From Clostridia bacterium (GTDB lineage Bacteria; Bacillota; Clostridia; Christensenellales; Aristaeellaceae): 64,000 nt of DNA. This document shows positions 1 through 48,215 of the stretch, piece after piece. The notes beneath the pieces were generated by a model. That model searched no databases. It had not been told where the DNA came from and worked only from the letters and a program-made list of their open reading frames with translations. How positions within the stretch are numbered: the first letter of the stretch is position 1; the number at the start of each line of letters is the position of its first letter. The translations under genes and the position numbers were made by a program. Where the stretch lies: positions 1 to 64,000 of the forward strand of contig JAFYFC010000037.1 in NCBI GenBank assembly GCA_017543905.1, given 5' to 3'.

Positions 1-10
1 AATTCTATTT

Positions 11-174
11 GAGCCAAAGCGTCCCGCATAGCGGGATCAACTTGCCAGCAGGCAAGTTGACCTCGTACGGTGCGAGGACGCGATTTTTGCGCAGGGAGCG
101 AAGACGACCGGAGCAAATAATCGCTTCCTTACAGTTTTTGCGCCCGGAAAATCCCGCAGGATTTTCAGCAAAAA
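11..174 (+). repeat. Mosaic intergenic repeat, copy 1 (modules B-A-C)
   Basis: Three modules are visible. Module B (11-64) holds two short hairpins, GTCCCGC/GCGGGAT and AACTTGCC/GGCAAGTT. Module A (74-124) is 51 bp. Module C (140-174) is 35 bp and folds around AAAATCC/GGATTTT. Modules A and C recur, identical but inverted, at 32034-32084 and 31903-31937. Module B recurs in the same orientation at 31966-32020. An ORF can be read through the element (9-233), but it resembles no protein I know. I treat the stretch 1-294 as non-coding intergenic DNA. Confidence 0.8.
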
Positions 175-251
175 CTGCTTTCCTGCCTCAGCGCTTACCG
201 AAAGTCTGCCGTTTTATCCAAGAACCTTACTAAGCTACAGAAAACCCCACC

Positions 252-284
252 CGATCGAAATGAAGCGCAGCTTCATTTCGATCG
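252..284 (-). terminator. 15-bp stem hairpin downstream of the araM-like gene
   Basis: The inverted repeat has arms CGATCGAAATGAAGC and GCTTCATTTCGATCG with a 3-nt loop. It lies just past the stop codon of the leftward gene at 295-1650. The same stem, with a different loop, forms the terminator at 31796-31837. On the minus strand the stem is followed by GGTGGGGTTTTC, a weak U-tract, so termination is likely but not textbook. Confidence 0.6.
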
Positions 285-294
285 AAACTTTGCG

Positions 295-1650
295 TCAGCA
301 AATCGGATAATCCTTCAAATACTTGTCCTCCAGCCCGCACTCGCTTATCAGCTTGAACAGCGTATAGCGGGTGCGGTAATCCTTTGCGCAGCGCATGGAG
401 AGGTTGAGAAGCGGCGTATCTATTCCCAGCTCCGCGGGCGTCATCGGCGCGCCGAGCCGCTTCATCGCGTCCTCGAGCCGTGACACGGGCGGCATCTCGT
501 CTATGCAGCGCCTGATTTCGGAAAACCTTGCTTCAGCGCGCGTTATGCGGCGCTTTTGCTCCTCCCAGCTAAGGAAGTCGCCCTCGTTTTCTTCCATGAT
601 CGCGTCCGCGGCGGGCCCGTAGGCCTTTTTCATCCATACGGTACGTGCCGCGCGGTCAGGCGCGTTTTTGCGTATGGCTTCGTAATCGAGGGCAGATAAG
701 TCCTCGTTCGCAAAGCGCTTGAATATCGGCCATACCAGAAGCGTGGAAACGCCTACCGACGCGCCGTGACCCGGCGCAGGCTTGCCGGCGAACATCTGCA
801 TCATTTCCCAGTAATGGGCGATATTGTGCTCCACCGACGCCACCGCGCGGGTATGTCCGATTATCATTATGGTCATGCCGGAAAGCAGCAGCGCCTCCGT
901 AAGCAGCCTTATGCCCTTTTCGCTGCGCGCTTTGATTTCGTCTATATTGTTCAAAAGCCGCTCGAGCGCGTCCGTGACTATTTCGCCGCACACGTCGCAG
1001 TAGACCTCGTCGTTGATTATGCGCCCTATCTTCCAGTCCGCCTTGGCTATGTATTTGCCCAGCACGTCTCCGACGCCCGCGCACACCATGTCCATCGGCG
1101 CGGTTTTCAGTATGTCCGTGTCACACACGATTATCTCCGGACATTTGCCGGGGCGATGAATCTTTACGCCGCGGTACGTGAGCGGACAGATAGAGGAGGT
1201 ATAGCCGTCCATGGAGGGCGCGGTTCCCACGCACACCTGCGGCAGATTGACCCGTGCCGCGACCACGCGCACTGTGTCCGTTATCGAGCCCGAGCCCACG
1301 GATACCAGAAAGTCCGTGTCTGGCTGCAGCGCCAGAAACACCTCGCCTACGGCGGTTTCGTCCGGCTCGAGCCGTCCATTGCGCCTGAGTATGCACTCGC
1401 TCACCGCGTATCCGGCGGACCTCAGATGCGCGCTCAAACGCGCGCCCGCGATGTCCCAGGTGATATTGTCCGCCACCAGCACGCAGTGCGCGCCGTAATT
1501 GCGCTTTTTTATGTAAGCAGCAGTTTTGTCTATTATCCCGCTGCCCACGTAGATATCCTGCGTAGGCTCGTTGTGCTGCGAACCGCACGCGCATTCGATG
1601 CCCGAGATTATCAGCCGACCGTCCTCGTCGTAGCTCATTTTGTAAGACAT
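295..1650 (-). CDS. araM: AraM/EgsA-type glycerol-1-phosphate dehydrogenase family protein
   Basis: This 451-aa cytosolic protein belongs to the metal-dependent dehydrogenase superfamily (COG0371), whose AraM members interconvert DHAP and sn-glycerol-1-phosphate with NAD(P)H. The sequence shows the nucleotide-binding GSGSITD (about 119-125). Putative metal ligands are Asp195 in GVGD, His275 and His295 in PGHGASVG, with spacings close to those of archaeal G1P dehydrogenase. The start was chosen because AGGGGG lies 9 nt upstream of the first ATG; a second ATG is four codons later. It has its own promoter (1706-1734) and lies beyond the terminator of the sugar operon. In Bacillus, araM sits in the arabinose operon, so a role in sugar rather than lipid metabolism is possible. 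The real substrate is unproved. Confidence 0.85.
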   Translation of the reverse strand: MSYKMSYDEDGRLIISGIECACGSQHNEPTQDIYVGSGIIDKTAAYIKKRNYGAHCVLVADNITWDIAGARLSAHLRSAGYAVSECILRRNGRLEPDETAVGEVFLALQPDTDFLVSVGSGSITDTVRVVAARVNLPQVCVGTAPSMDGYTSSICPLTYRGVKIHRPGKCPEIIVCDTDILKTAPMDMVCAGVGDVLGKYIAKADWKIGRIINDEVYCDVCGEIVTDALERLLNNIDEIKARSEKGIRLLTEALLLSGMTIMIIGHTRAVASVEHNIAHYWEMMQMFAGKPAPGHGASVGVSTLLVWPIFKRFANEDLSALDYEAIRKNAPDRAARTVWMKKAYGPAADAIMEENEGDFLSWEEQKRRITRAEARFSEIRRCIDEMPPVSRLEDAMKRLGAPMTPAELGIDTPLLNLSMRCAKDYRTRYTLFKLISECGLEDKYLKDYPIC

Positions 1651-31476: not shown

Positions 31477-31767
31477 ATGCAGCGCAGTAAAAACCGCTTC
31501 GTTCGCTTTATCTCCAAAAACAAAATCCATGCCGCAGTATTTGTAATATTTGTGGCTTTTATCGCGCTGCAGATCGCCATCAGCAGCTCCAGGGCCTCTT
31601 ATCAGAAAAATTACGAGCTCACTCAGGCGCAGAACCGCGCGCTCGAGGCGGAATACTATTCCCTGCAGCGGGAGCTCGAATTTGTCAAGTCCGACAAGGG
31701 CATAGAGCTTTACGCGCGCGCTCAGGGCATGCAGATGCCCGGCGAAACACGCTACAAGGCAAACTGA
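31477..31767 (+). CDS. Septum formation initiator (DivIC/FtsB-like)
   Basis: A 96-aa bitopic membrane protein: a basic N-terminus (MQRSKNRFVRFISKNKIH), one membrane helix (about 20-38), then an extracellular coiled coil and the short conserved GIELYARAQGMQMPGE tail of the DivIC/FtsB family. These proteins scaffold the divisome with FtsL and DivIB. I chose the ATG at 31477 because GGAG lies 8 nt upstream; the open frame runs back to 31342. It diverges from addA and ends at a perfect terminator. Confidence 0.82.
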   Translation: MQRSKNRFVRFISKNKIHAAVFVIFVAFIALQIAISSSRASYQKNYELTQAQNRALEAEYYSLQRELEFVKSDKGIELYARAQGMQMPGETRYKAN

Positions 31768-31795
31768 AAATCTACGGGGCTGTTGCCAGCCCCAT

Positions 31796-31837
31796 CGATC
31801 GAAATGAAGCTTTGCTTCATTTCGATCGGTTTTTTTA
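31796..31837 (+). terminator. Intrinsic terminator with the shared 15-bp stem
   Basis: The arms CGATCGAAATGAAGC and GCTTCATTTCGATCG, loop TTT, are followed by GTTTTTTTA. The same stem occurs at 252-284. Confidence 0.92.
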
Positions 31838-31902
31838 TTCTGCATTATAGACCATCTGTTTCAAAACGTCGGGCGGCAGGAGGAAATCCAACAGGATAAC
31901 AA

Positions 31903-32084
31903 TTTTTGCTGAAAATCCTGCGGGATTTTCCGGGCGCAAGGCGCACCGCCTCAAATCACAGATTTGAGCCGATGCGTCCCGCCGAAGGCGGGATTGATTT
32001 GCCGATGGCAAATCAACCTCAAATTGAGCAGTAGCGATTATTTGCTCCGGTCGTCTTCGCTCCCTGCGCAAAAATCGCGTCCTC
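31903..32084 (-). repeat. Mosaic intergenic repeat, copy 2 (modules C-B-A on the plus strand)
   Basis: On the plus strand the order is C inverted (31903-31937), a spacer with a CTCAAATC/GATTTGAG hairpin, B direct (31966-32020) and A inverted (32034-32084). A and C are exact inverted copies of 74-124 and 140-174. In B the stem bases differ from copy 1 but remain paired. The gap between genes here (31838-32178) holds only this element and further hairpins. An ORF across it (31835-32137, minus) shares peptide blocks with the ORF in copy 1 and is probably not a gene. Confidence 0.8.
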
Positions 32085-32115
32085 GGGCGGGCAAAGCTCG
32101 CCCTGCGGATTGTAG

Positions 32116-32137
32116 TTGGAGGGGCAAGCCCCTCCAA
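32116..32137 (-). terminator. GC-rich hairpin after the GT2 gene
   Basis: A perfect palindrome with arms TTGGAGGGGC / GCCCCTCCAA lies about 40 nt after the GT2 stop codon. No U-run follows on the minus strand, so termination is uncertain. Confidence 0.4.
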
Positions 32138-32178
32138 GCCTCCCCTGGGCTTTTGTATTTCTGAAGCAGCTCATCATT

Positions 32179-33111
32179 TTATTCGTCCCGCCGCGCGGTT
32201 TCCTTGATTATGTATTTGGGTCTGCGCTTGGTTTCGGCGTATATTTTGCCGGCGTATTCCCCTGTCACGCCCAGCGCGGTCAGCAAAAGCCCGCCTATAA
32301 ACCACACCGAAAACGCCGCAAAGCCCGTCTGAGTGCCGGGCACGCAGACGTCTATTATGCCCATCACGAGAGACGCAAGCAGTACGCACAGCCCCGTTAT
32401 CCATATAAGCCGTATCGGCTTTACGGAAAACGAGGTTATGCCCTGAAACGCGAGGGCGAGCATTTTTTTGAGCGGATAATGGCTCACGCCCGCGAAGCGT
32501 TCCGCGCGCTCGTAATACACCTTCTCGGTATTGAAGCCCAGCAGCGGCACCATGCCGCGCAGGTACAGATTGACCTCGGTATAGCTCATAAGCGCGCCAA
32601 GCGCGCGCGCGGACAGCAGGCGGAAATCCGCGTGATTGTACACGCTCTCCGCGCCCATCGCCGTCATCAGCTTATAAAACGCCTCCGCGCTCAGACGCTT
32701 GAAGACAGAATCGGTCTTGCGGCTGCTTCTTACGCCGTAAACGACGTCCGCGCCCGCCTGCAGCTTCTGCACGAACACGCGCATCGTATTCACGTCGTCC
32801 TGAAGGTCCGCGTCGATGCTTATGCACGCGTCGCATTTGCCGCGCGCGTATTCCATGCCCGCCCACACCGCGTTCTGATGCCCGCTGTTGTGCGCGAGGG
32901 AGATCCCCTCGAAGCGCGCGTCGTTCGCACTCGCGCGTATAATGTCCCACGTGCCGTCGCGGCTGCCGTCGTCCACGAATACCACGCGGCTGTTTTCCGC
33001 CAGCAGATCCGCGTTTTCGTCCAGAAACGCGCCCAGACGCCTGACCGTCTCCGGCAGCACCTCCTGCTCGTTATAGCAGGGCACGACTATATACAGTACG
33101 GTTTTGTCCAT
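32179..33111 (-). CDS. Family 2 glycosyltransferase with two C-terminal membrane helices
   Basis: A 310-aa membrane-bound enzyme of the GtrB/DPM1 type. It shows the N-terminal VVPCYNEQEVLPETV, the donor-binding VFVDDGSRDGTW and the metal motif ISIDADLQDD. Two membrane segments lie at about 231-251 and 263-290. Such enzymes move a sugar from a nucleotide donor to a lipid (polyprenyl phosphate) carrier for wall or polymer decoration. It starts 12 nt after dnaE ends, so it is probably co-transcribed. The acceptor polymer is unknown. Confidence 0.9.
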   Translation of the reverse strand: MDKTVLYIVVPCYNEQEVLPETVRRLGAFLDENADLLAENSRVVFVDDGSRDGTWDIIRASANDARFEGISLAHNSGHQNAVWAGMEYARGKCDACISIDADLQDDVNTMRVFVQKLQAGADVVYGVRSSRKTDSVFKRLSAEAFYKLMTAMGAESVYNHADFRLLSARALGALMSYTEVNLYLRGMVPLLGFNTEKVYYERAERFAGVSHYPLKKMLALAFQGITSFSVKPIRLIWITGLCVLLASLVMGIIDVCVPGTQTGFAAFSVWFIGGLLLTALGVTGEYAGKIYAETKRRPKYIIKETARRDE

Positions 33112-45817: not shown

Positions 45818-47506
45818 TTACAGACCTGCACTCTCCTCGAACGGGATATAGCTGCCTGTTTCGAATATCCTGCAGATCACGTCGTAATGCGGCACGCTTC
45901 TGCCGTACAATTCGCGCCAGCCGCCGTCGGTGCCCAGCGCGGTCCAGCTAAGCGTGCATTCGGGCAGCGAGAGCCTGAGCTGCCGCTTAACTGCGTCGGT
46001 AAGGTAGTCGTGATAGCTGCGCGACACGCACGCGGAGCACATCCACAGGCGTCTGAGGCTCTTCATGTCCGCCAGCGCCTCCGGATTTTCTATATCGTTG
46101 ATAGTCAGGTTCGCGTCCATCAGGCGCGTGCACGCCCTAAGCGGGCTTATGTCCTTTATGCGGTTTGAAAACGCCTCGAGGTATTCGAGCTTGGTACATG
46201 CGCTGATCGCGCTTATGTCGCTTATATTGTTGCCCGCGATTATCAGCACGCGCAACTCCGGCATCGAGCGCAGAAACTCCACCTGCGTCAGATCGTTGTG
46301 TCCCAGATCCAGCGCGAGCATATGCCGGCAGTATTTCAGCACCTCGAAATCCGCGTCCGAATGATGGGCGCTCACGGTGTTGTGGTTGGTGGTGAACACC
46401 TCGTCGTCCGTGCGGATCACATGCGTATGGATGCCGCACTCTATCCGGAACGTCCAGCCGAATTCCACCTGCGGGTATCTTTCGGTGAGCGCCTCGGCCC
46501 AGTCCGCGCTCATGCGCGTATAATACATGTCGCACTTTTTGAGATTCGGAAATCCGTCCAGATACGCCGTAAGCTTGTCAAAATCCGTCCATCTGACGCG
46601 CCCGAGGTCTATGCGCTCGGCCGTGCTGTCGTAGTTCTTCGGCGGCACGTTCACAGGCTCCGGCGTGGGCGTGGGAGTGGGAGTGGGCGTGGGCGTAGGC
46701 GTAGGTCTGGGCGTGGGCGTGGGGCGCGGCGTAGGCGTGGGAGACGGCGTGGGCGTGGGCGTGGGAACGTATGTGTATGCGCCCATTATAAAGCCGTTGT
46801 CGTGGCGGAAACGCGCAAAGTCCTTGTATTTCATCCAGTACGCGCCGGAGGCCGCATAGCGGAAGCGCGTGCGCTTGCTTATGTCCTCGAACGTATAGGC
46901 GGTTTTCTCCGAGACGACCGTGGTGGTGTAGGGCGAGGAGTCGACTATGAGTATATACAGCGTGTCCTCGTATTCGGTATAGCCCACGCTGAGCAGATAA
47001 TGCCCGCCGGGATTGGCGATTATCACGCCTCCCTCGTCAAAAAACTCCTTAAGCGCGGGAATGTCCTTTGCGAGCTGCTGGGTCTGGGAGGCTTCGACTA
47101 TCGTAAGCGCGCTGCCCAGCTTCGTGCTTATCCAGTCGTTGTACGCGCTGGTAGAGGACACGTGCCGTCTGCCCTCGACGCCGCCGCAGTAGGTATGCCC
47201 CGAATCCTCCGGCGCAAGCCTGCCGTCCGAGGGATTGCGGCACACGTTCAGCAGCTCCCTGATCAGATCGTCGTCCGTGCGCTCTCCGGTCATGTACTCG
47301 TAGGTGTGCGCGTAGGCGAAAATATGACAGCCCGCGCCGTCCACGCGCCCCGGGTTGGCCCTGCCGCGCAGCGCCCACTCGTAGGTGTTGTAATCCGCCT
47401 GAGTGTAGATGTATATCTTTTCGTAAGGGTTCTCGTAAGCGAGCGCCGAAAGCGAAACGATCGCAAGCACTATAAGCGTAAATCCAATTAGAGCGTATTT
47501 TTTCAT
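45818..47506 (-). CDS. Secreted C39-like peptidase / Pro-Thr linker / LRR protein
   Basis: A 562-aa exported protein. I chose the ATG at 47506 because it gives a clean signal peptide (MKKYALIGFTLIVLAIVSLS) with GGGA 6 nt upstream. Residues 50-235 resemble a C39-type papain-fold domain, with Cys60 in DGAGCHIFAYAH, His169 in GGHYLLSVGY and Asp189 in LIVDSS. A Pro-Thr linker (about 248-283) follows. Residues about 385-480 have leucine-rich repeats (MLALDLGHNDLTQVEFL, LRVLIIAGNNISDISAI). It may cleave or bind a surface or matrix protein. No anchor is seen. It is last in the lgt-secDF-relA run. Confidence 0.75.
   Translation of the reverse strand: MKKYALIGFTLIVLAIVSLSALAYENPYEKIYIYTQADYNTYEWALRGRANPGRVDGAGCHIFAYAHTYEYMTGERTDDDLIRELLNVCRNPSDGRLAPEDSGHTYCGGVEGRRHVSSTSAYNDWISTKLGSALTIVEASQTQQLAKDIPALKEFFDEGGVIIANPGGHYLLSVGYTEYEDTLYILIVDSSPYTTTVVSEKTAYTFEDISKRTRFRYAASGAYWMKYKDFARFRHDNGFIMGAYTYVPTPTPTPSPTPTPRPTPTPRPTPTPTPTPTPTPTPEPVNVPPKNYDSTAERIDLGRVRWTDFDKLTAYLDGFPNLKKCDMYYTRMSADWAEALTERYPQVEFGWTFRIECGIHTHVIRTDDEVFTTNHNTVSAHHSDADFEVLKYCRHMLALDLGHNDLTQVEFLRSMPELRVLIIAGNNISDISAISACTKLEYLEAFSNRIKDISPLRACTRLMDANLTINDIENPEALADMKSLRRLWMCSACVSRSYHDYLTDAVKRQLRLSLPECTLSWTALGTDGGWRELYGRSVPHYDVICRIFETGSYIPFEESAGL
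46658..46765 (-). repeat. Tandem Pro-Thr codon repeat inside the C39/LRR gene
   Basis: About 18 copies of a 6-bp unit (GTGGGC/GTAGGC on the plus strand) encode alternating Pro-Thr, with a few Ser and Arg changes. Such arrays are prone to length change by slippage, in steps of two residues. Confidence 0.85.
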
Positions 47507-47540
47507 GTGCGTTCCCATCTCCGTCAGCGTTTTTATGAGT

Positions 47541-48215
47541 TTACGGCGCGGCCGATGCGTCGGGTTCATGCGTCTGCGTCTCCTCGCCGCTTTTTATAAC
47601 CTCGTATACGTAGCCCTTCGTGTCCACGCGTATGCTTTTTATGATCTGCTTATCCATGGGGCGGTAGGACTTGTCGAGCGTATAGGCGGCGATCGCGTCC
47701 AGCGCGGCAAGGCTCGCGCGGTCGTTTTCGTCTATACGTCCGAAGGCGGCGTATTTGCCGTTGTACTCGCTGTGATCCGAGAGCATTATGAAAAACTGGC
47801 TGCCCGCGGAATCGTAATCGTCCGTAAGACGGCACATGGATATCGTGCCGCGCGTATGAGCAAGCCCTTCGAGCGGAAAGCCGTTTTCGCTAAATTCGCC
47901 GTCTATCGTGTAGTCCGGCCCGCCCGTGCCGTCCCCGTTCGGGTCGCCGCCGCGGATAAAGTACGTGGGATACACGTAATCCACGGTCAGCCCGTCATAG
48001 TAACCCGAATTCGCAAGGGATATAAAATTGCTCACCGTGTTCGGCGCGACGGATGGATACAGCGTTAAGCGTATCACGCCGCCGTCGTTCATCGTAAGCG
48101 TGGCGACCGGGCGCGGGATGTCCTCGTAGGGGCTTACGTACTCCACGCCGCAGCCCGACAGCGCTATAAGGGCAAGCAGCGCGCCGAGGGCGAGTATCGT
48201 CCTTTTAAGCTTCAT
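47541..48215 (-). CDS. Cyclophilin-type peptidyl-prolyl isomerase lipoprotein
   Basis: A 224-aa lipoprotein. The signal ends in a lipobox (ALSGC, Cys22), so the protein is anchored outside the cell membrane. The cyclophilin fold shows SVAPNTVSNFISLANSGYYD, RGTISMCR and SAGSQFFIMLSD. It should help fold exported proteins. It begins 5 nt after hemZ and is followed 34 nt later by the C39/LRR gene. The GGDPNGDGTGG segment resembles the active-site loop. Confidence 0.92.
   Translation of the reverse strand: MKLKRTILALGALLALIALSGCGVEYVSPYEDIPRPVATLTMNDGGVIRLTLYPSVAPNTVSNFISLANSGYYDGLTVDYVYPTYFIRGGDPNGDGTGGPDYTIDGEFSENGFPLEGLAHTRGTISMCRLTDDYDSAGSQFFIMLSDHSEYNGKYAAFGRIDENDRASLAALDAIAAYTLDKSYRPMDKQIIKSIRVDTKGYVYEVIKSGEETQTHEPDASAAP

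Follow-up and report, generated by a model that had tools for sequence, protein, structure and literature searches.

The window analysed here, a stretch of 64,000 nucleotides taken from the start of contig C31 (positions 1-64000) in a gut Clostridia MAG of 2.75 Mb and 55 contigs, carries two copies of a folded intergenic repeat of about 300-450 bp that is present in about 50 copies in the same genome (the window genome). The repeat is probably a non-autonomous, modular interspersed family that propagates in trans through recognition of a folded single strand. Its modules lie in one fixed order, its stems are held by compensatory change across genera, and its genomic positions turn over.

The relationship between the two copies is seen in two blocks. 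Block A (73-125) recurs in inverted orientation at 32033-32085, where all 53 nt are identical. Block C (138-185) does so at 31892-31939, with 94% identity across 48 nt and an identical core of 35-37 nt; such matches are far beyond chance for 64 kb. The initial annotation had rightly picked out these two inverted shared blocks, together with a hairpin block B that it took to be a single block relocated between the copies. As it had noted, A and C are inverted between the copies and the B-like hairpins are not, being on the + strand in each, but these hairpins belong to distinct modules, B1 and B2, which align in inverted orientation with 63 of 86 columns identical. The apparent orders B-A-C and A-B-C thus came from comparing a copy that holds only B1 with one that holds only B2. 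The element also reaches further than had been noticed. On the 3' side, C is followed by a linker and then by a T hairpin of 33 bp (252-284 and 31796-31828), and on the 5' side of copy 2 there is in addition a GC-rich U block. As the window begins at the contig end, copy 1 lacks its 5' side up to a point inside B1. The features are as follows.

1..72, + strand: copy 1, slot 1 filled by the optional module B1, a series of three palindromes in tandem with the 5' part missing (C31:1-73 matches B1 positions 18-90 at 99%).
73..125, + strand: copy 1, core block A, forming stem P1 with an interior loop (GAGGACGCGATTTTTGC...GCAAATAATCGCT), the pairs of which covary across genera.
132..177, + strand: copy 1, core block C, with stem P2 (CAGTTTTTGC/GCAAAAACTG), GCCCG bulge and hairpin P3; slot 3 is empty.
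178..251, + strand: copy 1, conserved linker 3' of C; the C-to-T distance is 86-89 nt in nearly all copies.
252..284, + strand: copy 1, T hairpin CGATCGAAATGAAGC..GCTTCATTTCGATCG, adjoining the 3' end of the gene at 295-1650 (- strand).
31776..31793, - strand: copy 2, terminal hairpin GGGGCTGGCAACAGCCCC closing the element on its 3' side, next to the putative septum-initiator-like gene ending at 31767.
31796..31828, - strand: copy 2, T hairpin, followed by a T run on the + strand, so that it also reads as a terminator of the gene ending at 31767.
31829..31899, - strand: copy 2, linker from C to T.
31900..31939, - strand: copy 2, block C, comprising the P2 3' arm, P3, the GCCCG bulge and the inner part of the P2 5' arm.
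31940..32021, - strand: copy 2, slot 3 filled by the optional module B2, which splits the P2 5' arm (CAATTT^TTGC), with junctions placed by comparing filled and empty copies.
32033..32085, - strand: copy 2, core block A (P1).
32086..32102, - strand: copy 2, slot 1, with a short GC hairpin (GGGCGAGCTTTGCCCGCCC) in place of B1.
32103..32165, - strand: copy 2, U block (GAGCTGCTTC..AAAAGCCC, CTTGGAGGGG-CTTG-CCCCTCC, ATCCGCAG), the 5' end of the element.

Elsewhere in the window, a GC-rich near-tandem repeat with units of 6-18 bp (GGCGTGGGCGTGGGAGTG..) lies on the + strand at 46650-46775, where it overlaps the ORF at 45818-47569 (- strand) and probably codes for a Pro-Thr-like linker.

When A, B and C are searched for separately across the window genome, all three recur well beyond the two places in the window. 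Block A gives 40 matches and block C 21, against 0 control matches for the latter, whilst a covariance model of the core gives 57; T-type palindromes number 52, nearly all of them within the element. Every catalogued copy, without exception, is ordered as U, slot 1, A, slot 3, C, linker and T hairpin, an arrangement that resembles BOX in having modules in fixed order plus an optional inner module. The U block consists of GC-rich hairpins ending in ..ATCCGCAG. Within A, stem P1 is formed by GCGATTTTTGC/GCAAATAATCGC and its short interior tract holds a variable number of GAGCGAAGCG-like units of about 10 nt, while C is built from P2 with its GCCCG bulge together with hairpin P3. Slot 1 is occupied either by a short GC hairpin or by B1, a module of about 90 bp that occurs in about 20 copies, always directly 5' of A, and that lies in the loop of the slot-1 hairpin. 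Slot 3 is either empty or filled by B2, of about 82 bp and in about 24 full copies, which is found only between A and C and splits the 5' arm of P2 precisely at CAATTT^TTGC. Each of the two consists of three successive palindromes. Aligned in opposite orientations they score 95, whereas 500 shuffles reach 59 at most, which makes B1 and B2 distantly homologous three-hairpin modules. Related module fragments occupy the same slots in congeners, with L327 and L336 as examples for slot 1 and L299 and L345 for slot 3. In another genus, a B2-like third hairpin (GGCTCAAATC..GATTTGAG) lies downstream of the element at L154:669-710, beside a masked N run, and suggests that the B module may predate the genus of the window.

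This anatomy bears directly on the proposal of the initial annotation that A, B and C are independent blocks which a mobile or recombining system, for example a REP-associated tyrosine transposase (RAYT), has shuffled. The homologous B1 and B2 do place B-like hairpins in two slots and two orientations, and the contents of the slots vary independently, such that the copies complete enough to score comprise 10 with both modules, 5 with B1 only, 9 with B2 only and 15 with neither (Fisher p 0.11). Against this, order, orientation and slot rule are unbroken in all catalogued copies, B1 is never in slot 3 and B2 never in slot 1, and the congeners use the same slots. Nor is there a match to the Y1 domain (Y1_Tnp, PF01797) of RAYT in either the window genome, which is about 95% complete, or the congener G006, genomes with more than 55 model matches each, in a search where control genomes were positive, which makes RAYT unlikely. 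Shuffling of this kind is therefore barely credible, and what survives of the proposal is an element that is modular, interspersed, of high turnover and other than a simple REP. The order seen elsewhere is a single fixed one, the outcome under which one of the two window copies was expected to prove a rearrangement artefact, yet copy 2 is not a rearranged copy 1, since their optional modules differ.

Some individual copies depart from the common pattern. On contig C24, one copy (L039:1435-1541) has in the same place a P1 wholly different in sequence (GAATTTTCATGAAGGCGGGCTTGCACGCCGAGAATGAAAATTC), similar to the P1 types of other genera, so that, on sequence grounds, a divergent subfamily coexists in the window genome. 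At L009:1501-1812 on contig C51 there are tandem units, the second of which directly follows the first T hairpin and lacks U and the left half of A, an arrangement that suggests recombination between copies. In L052, L057/L036, L058, L062, L070 and L071, U is closely preceded by another repeat module, D (TTCTCGCCTGCGGGCTCGGTCACGGTTCGGCTCTGACAGTCCACT..). Many contigs end inside B1, B2 or A (C1, C5, C12, C15, C25, C27, C31, C39, C47, C49 and C54, for instance), from which it follows that the repeats fragment the assembly and that copies at contig ends are truncated.

The core fold of the element is made up of P1 and of P2/P3 with the GCCCG bulge. Within the window genome alone, compensatory double changes are found in 12 of the 29 consensus pairs. 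In a family-wide alignment, which was fitted to the covariance model and so leans towards structure, 96.4% of cells are paired and double changes extend to 27 of the 29 pairs; double-change cells number 484, where shuffling yields 118 on average (sd 8), the covariation score is 0.54 against 0.155 when shuffled and at most 0.10 when slid, and sliding the partner by a single column lowers pairing to 44-50%. These gaps are too large to be produced by model fitting alone. The window copies also fold far more stably than shuffled sequence, with z of -7.1 for copy 2 as RNA and -7.6 for window positions 1-300 as DNA. The mismatches on the element strand are asymmetric, with G-T at 30 and A-C at 4 (any nominal p is only a guide, as the alignment rows are related rather than independent), so that the constraint acts on one folded strand, whether RNA or single-stranded DNA; the rarity of wobble (G-U) pairs, at 1-2% of cells, leaves room for the DNA reading. 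Several unpaired motifs are also conserved, namely the GCCCG bulge, a GNA/GGGA interior loop and, in some P3 stems, tandem G-A, so that covarying stems stand together with conserved unpaired positions in the manner of a structured RNA.

Such features would also be expected of a structured non-coding RNA, or of a cis-acting 3'-UTR element, that has been duplicated many times and serves the host in termination, mRNA stabilisation or protein binding. Besides the covariation, the unpaired motifs and the preference of one strand for G-T over A-C, this explanation can draw on the terminator-like ends of the element and on the genes around it, as 38 of 42 copies in the window genome have a T-side gene directed towards them (p 6e-8). 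However, Rfam gives no match at gathering thresholds and nothing on the element at E<=1, and G-U pairing is, in our judgement, low for a transcript selected as RNA. The orientation bias is similar in the congener G003 (13/16) and absent in G006 (12 towards, 10 away, of 22), and across other genera neighbour orientation is random (32 against 30, or 32/62), with gene calls throughout taken from a codon-usage script. A bias that is strong in the window genome and G003 and gone elsewhere is a habit of lineage rather than a defining function, and a universal role at gene 3' ends was rejected on the lack of bias in G006 and the other genera. Among the flanks of the window-genome copies there is no convincing recurrent partner gene. 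Given, in addition, the unconserved positions and the unstable copy number described below, a host-function RNA is unlikely.

The first covariance model detects the element in 6 of 6 congeners and in 11 other genera sampled from the same family, but 24 genomes belonging to the order's other families give it no match. A broader second model recovers low-copy relatives in two other families, f10 (1-3 copies) and f33 (6). The number of copies changes abruptly from genus to genus, and many genomes of the same family have none. A pattern scan of GTDB genomes returned, among the matches listed, mostly ruminant-gut 'Clostridia/Clostridiales' MAGs, along with Christensenella sp. UBA4379, Ca. Faecaligallichristensenella and Ca. 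Alectryocaccomicrobium, and the few outlying matches, such as one to an archaeon, look like chance. A phage or plasmid origin was rejected, as searches of INPHARED and PLSDB were without match; in IMG/VR there was one exact pattern match among 2.9 million contigs, and none for the genus-specific A pattern.

The positions of the element are equally changeable. For instance, copy 2 sits between a family-2 glycosyltransferase gene (32179-33111, - strand) and the gene ending at 31767, a small coiled-coil, septum-initiator-like candidate named by eye. The same convergent pair is adjacent in the congeners G006, G002 and G001 with a short intergenic hairpin and no element, everything from the U block to 31776 being missing from the orthologous region. 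This points to gain of copy 2 rather than loss, although only indirectly because the congeners, at 61-70% protein identity, are too diverged for the junction to be aligned. Of the congeners, five have a clear ortholog of the Fe-ADH-like gene beside copy 1, and in none of these does an element adjoin it. More broadly, only 6 of the 96 proteins that flank window-genome copies have a match among 40 element loci sampled in G006 and G003, and just one adjacency (L022/L024 with L341), hence at most one of about 42 sites, could be shared. As this sample covers about a third of the copies in G006 and G003 (40 of over 110 congener copies), shared sites are under-counted, though strong positional conservation is still excluded.

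Recent amplification is apparent in one relative, RGIG5665 (G060), where 40 copies or more are found in unrelated flanks, with 92-99% identity among the best. Gene conversion, if recurrent, could mimic such amplification for internal modules. The copies in this genome are bounded by 16-bp inverted repeats, AAATTCTGATTTGTCG...CGACAAATCAGAATTT, and neither they, where complete, nor those of the window genome have a target duplication visible by eye. The arms of the palindrome AAATTCTGATTTGTCG-N5-CGACAAATCAGAATTT match 646 times, read as about 320 palindromes, of which many are empty and some enclose the element (loci L253-L282 and L360-L389); about 320 copies of one palindrome in 3.5 Mb is an extreme density. 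In the window genome terminal inverted repeats are weak and imperfect, with 5.3 mismatches against 6.2 for shuffled flanks. It might be supposed that the elements grew in place from gene terminators, by insertion into the loop of a locus-specific palindrome, since the palindrome that encloses the element in RGIG5665 is also found without it and the window-genome copy L033 is bounded by GATAGCGGGGCTG...CAGCCCCGCTATC. Yet the outer flanks in the window genome are no more complementary within a copy than between copies (permutation p 0.27), and growth in place is very improbable.

The favoured reading of trans propagation may be set out as a mechanism. A trans-acting enzyme would recognise the folded strand and copy or move the element into tolerant intergenic DNA, in the species of the window mainly beside gene 3' ends. 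B would be an older hairpin module that entered the ancestral element of this genus on two occasions, once in each orientation, and the B modules would now be gained and lost through recombination between copies. The effect on the host is probably mostly that of a passive, structured 3'-flank or terminator sequence. No mobilising gene was found, and none of the retrieved loci holds an autonomous relative sharing the ends of the element. A further reading, in which a selfish RNA element of Christensenella-like Clostridia, a bacterial counterpart of a SINE, has its transcribed, folded RNA as the mobile form, copied into DNA in trans with the GCCCG-bulged P2/P3 as recognition domain, is quite improbable.

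Interspersed hairpin repeats are common in bacteria, and the importance of their fold is usually unclear. Here the fold has been rewritten by compensatory changes across many genera while positions turn over, which points to selection on the propagation of the element, or on its folded product, and not on each locus. P1 and P2/GCCCG/P3 thereby offer a precise candidate recognition structure, and the element accounts for much of the assembly fragmentation in these MAGs.

With respect to known systems, the element is best read as working like the BOX elements of Streptococcus pneumoniae. BOX (boxA-boxB-boxC) is present as about 100 interspersed intergenic copies with a fixed order, an optional inner module and a stem-loop fold, and is considered parasitic; its insertion duplicates the target, its range is almost confined to a few streptococci, and parasitic repeats in pneumococcus are also in excess between convergent genes (PMC3049150). 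The likeness is one of organisation (intergenic, modular, fixed in order, with an optional inner module, a fold and an excess at convergent genes) and links different orders of Bacillota. Unlike BOX, the present element has two different optional modules in two slots, shows no visible duplication and keeps its fold by compensatory change across many genera. REP/BIME sequences, associated with RAYT (TnpAREP), are likewise palindromic, extragenic and of high copy number, and often lie 3' of genes (PMC3733652, PMC8266576), and a bulged one-strand hairpin is the type of substrate that HuH transposases read. However, their unit is 20-40 bp, against 300-450 bp and about eight hairpins here, the window genome and G006 have no Y1 transposase, and no REP-type GTAG/CGTC tag at a palindrome foot stood out on reading by eye. 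Classical MITEs are similarly short, non-coding and present in many copies, and the 16-bp terminal inverted repeats in RGIG5665 recall them, those of the window genome being weak, but here no target duplication was seen, no parent IS was found and internal stems are constrained over genera. The element can thus be filed neither as a MITE, for want of a visible duplication, nor as a REP, on account of its size and the lack of RAYT. The repetitive hairpin elements of sponge mitochondria have likewise invaded intergenic DNA repeatedly, with different elements in different lineages (PMC2800124), though those reside in organelle genomes and no shared sequence is claimed. What is new in the present element is the depth of its structural conservation together with positional turnover, and its two fixed insertion slots for inverted homologous modules.
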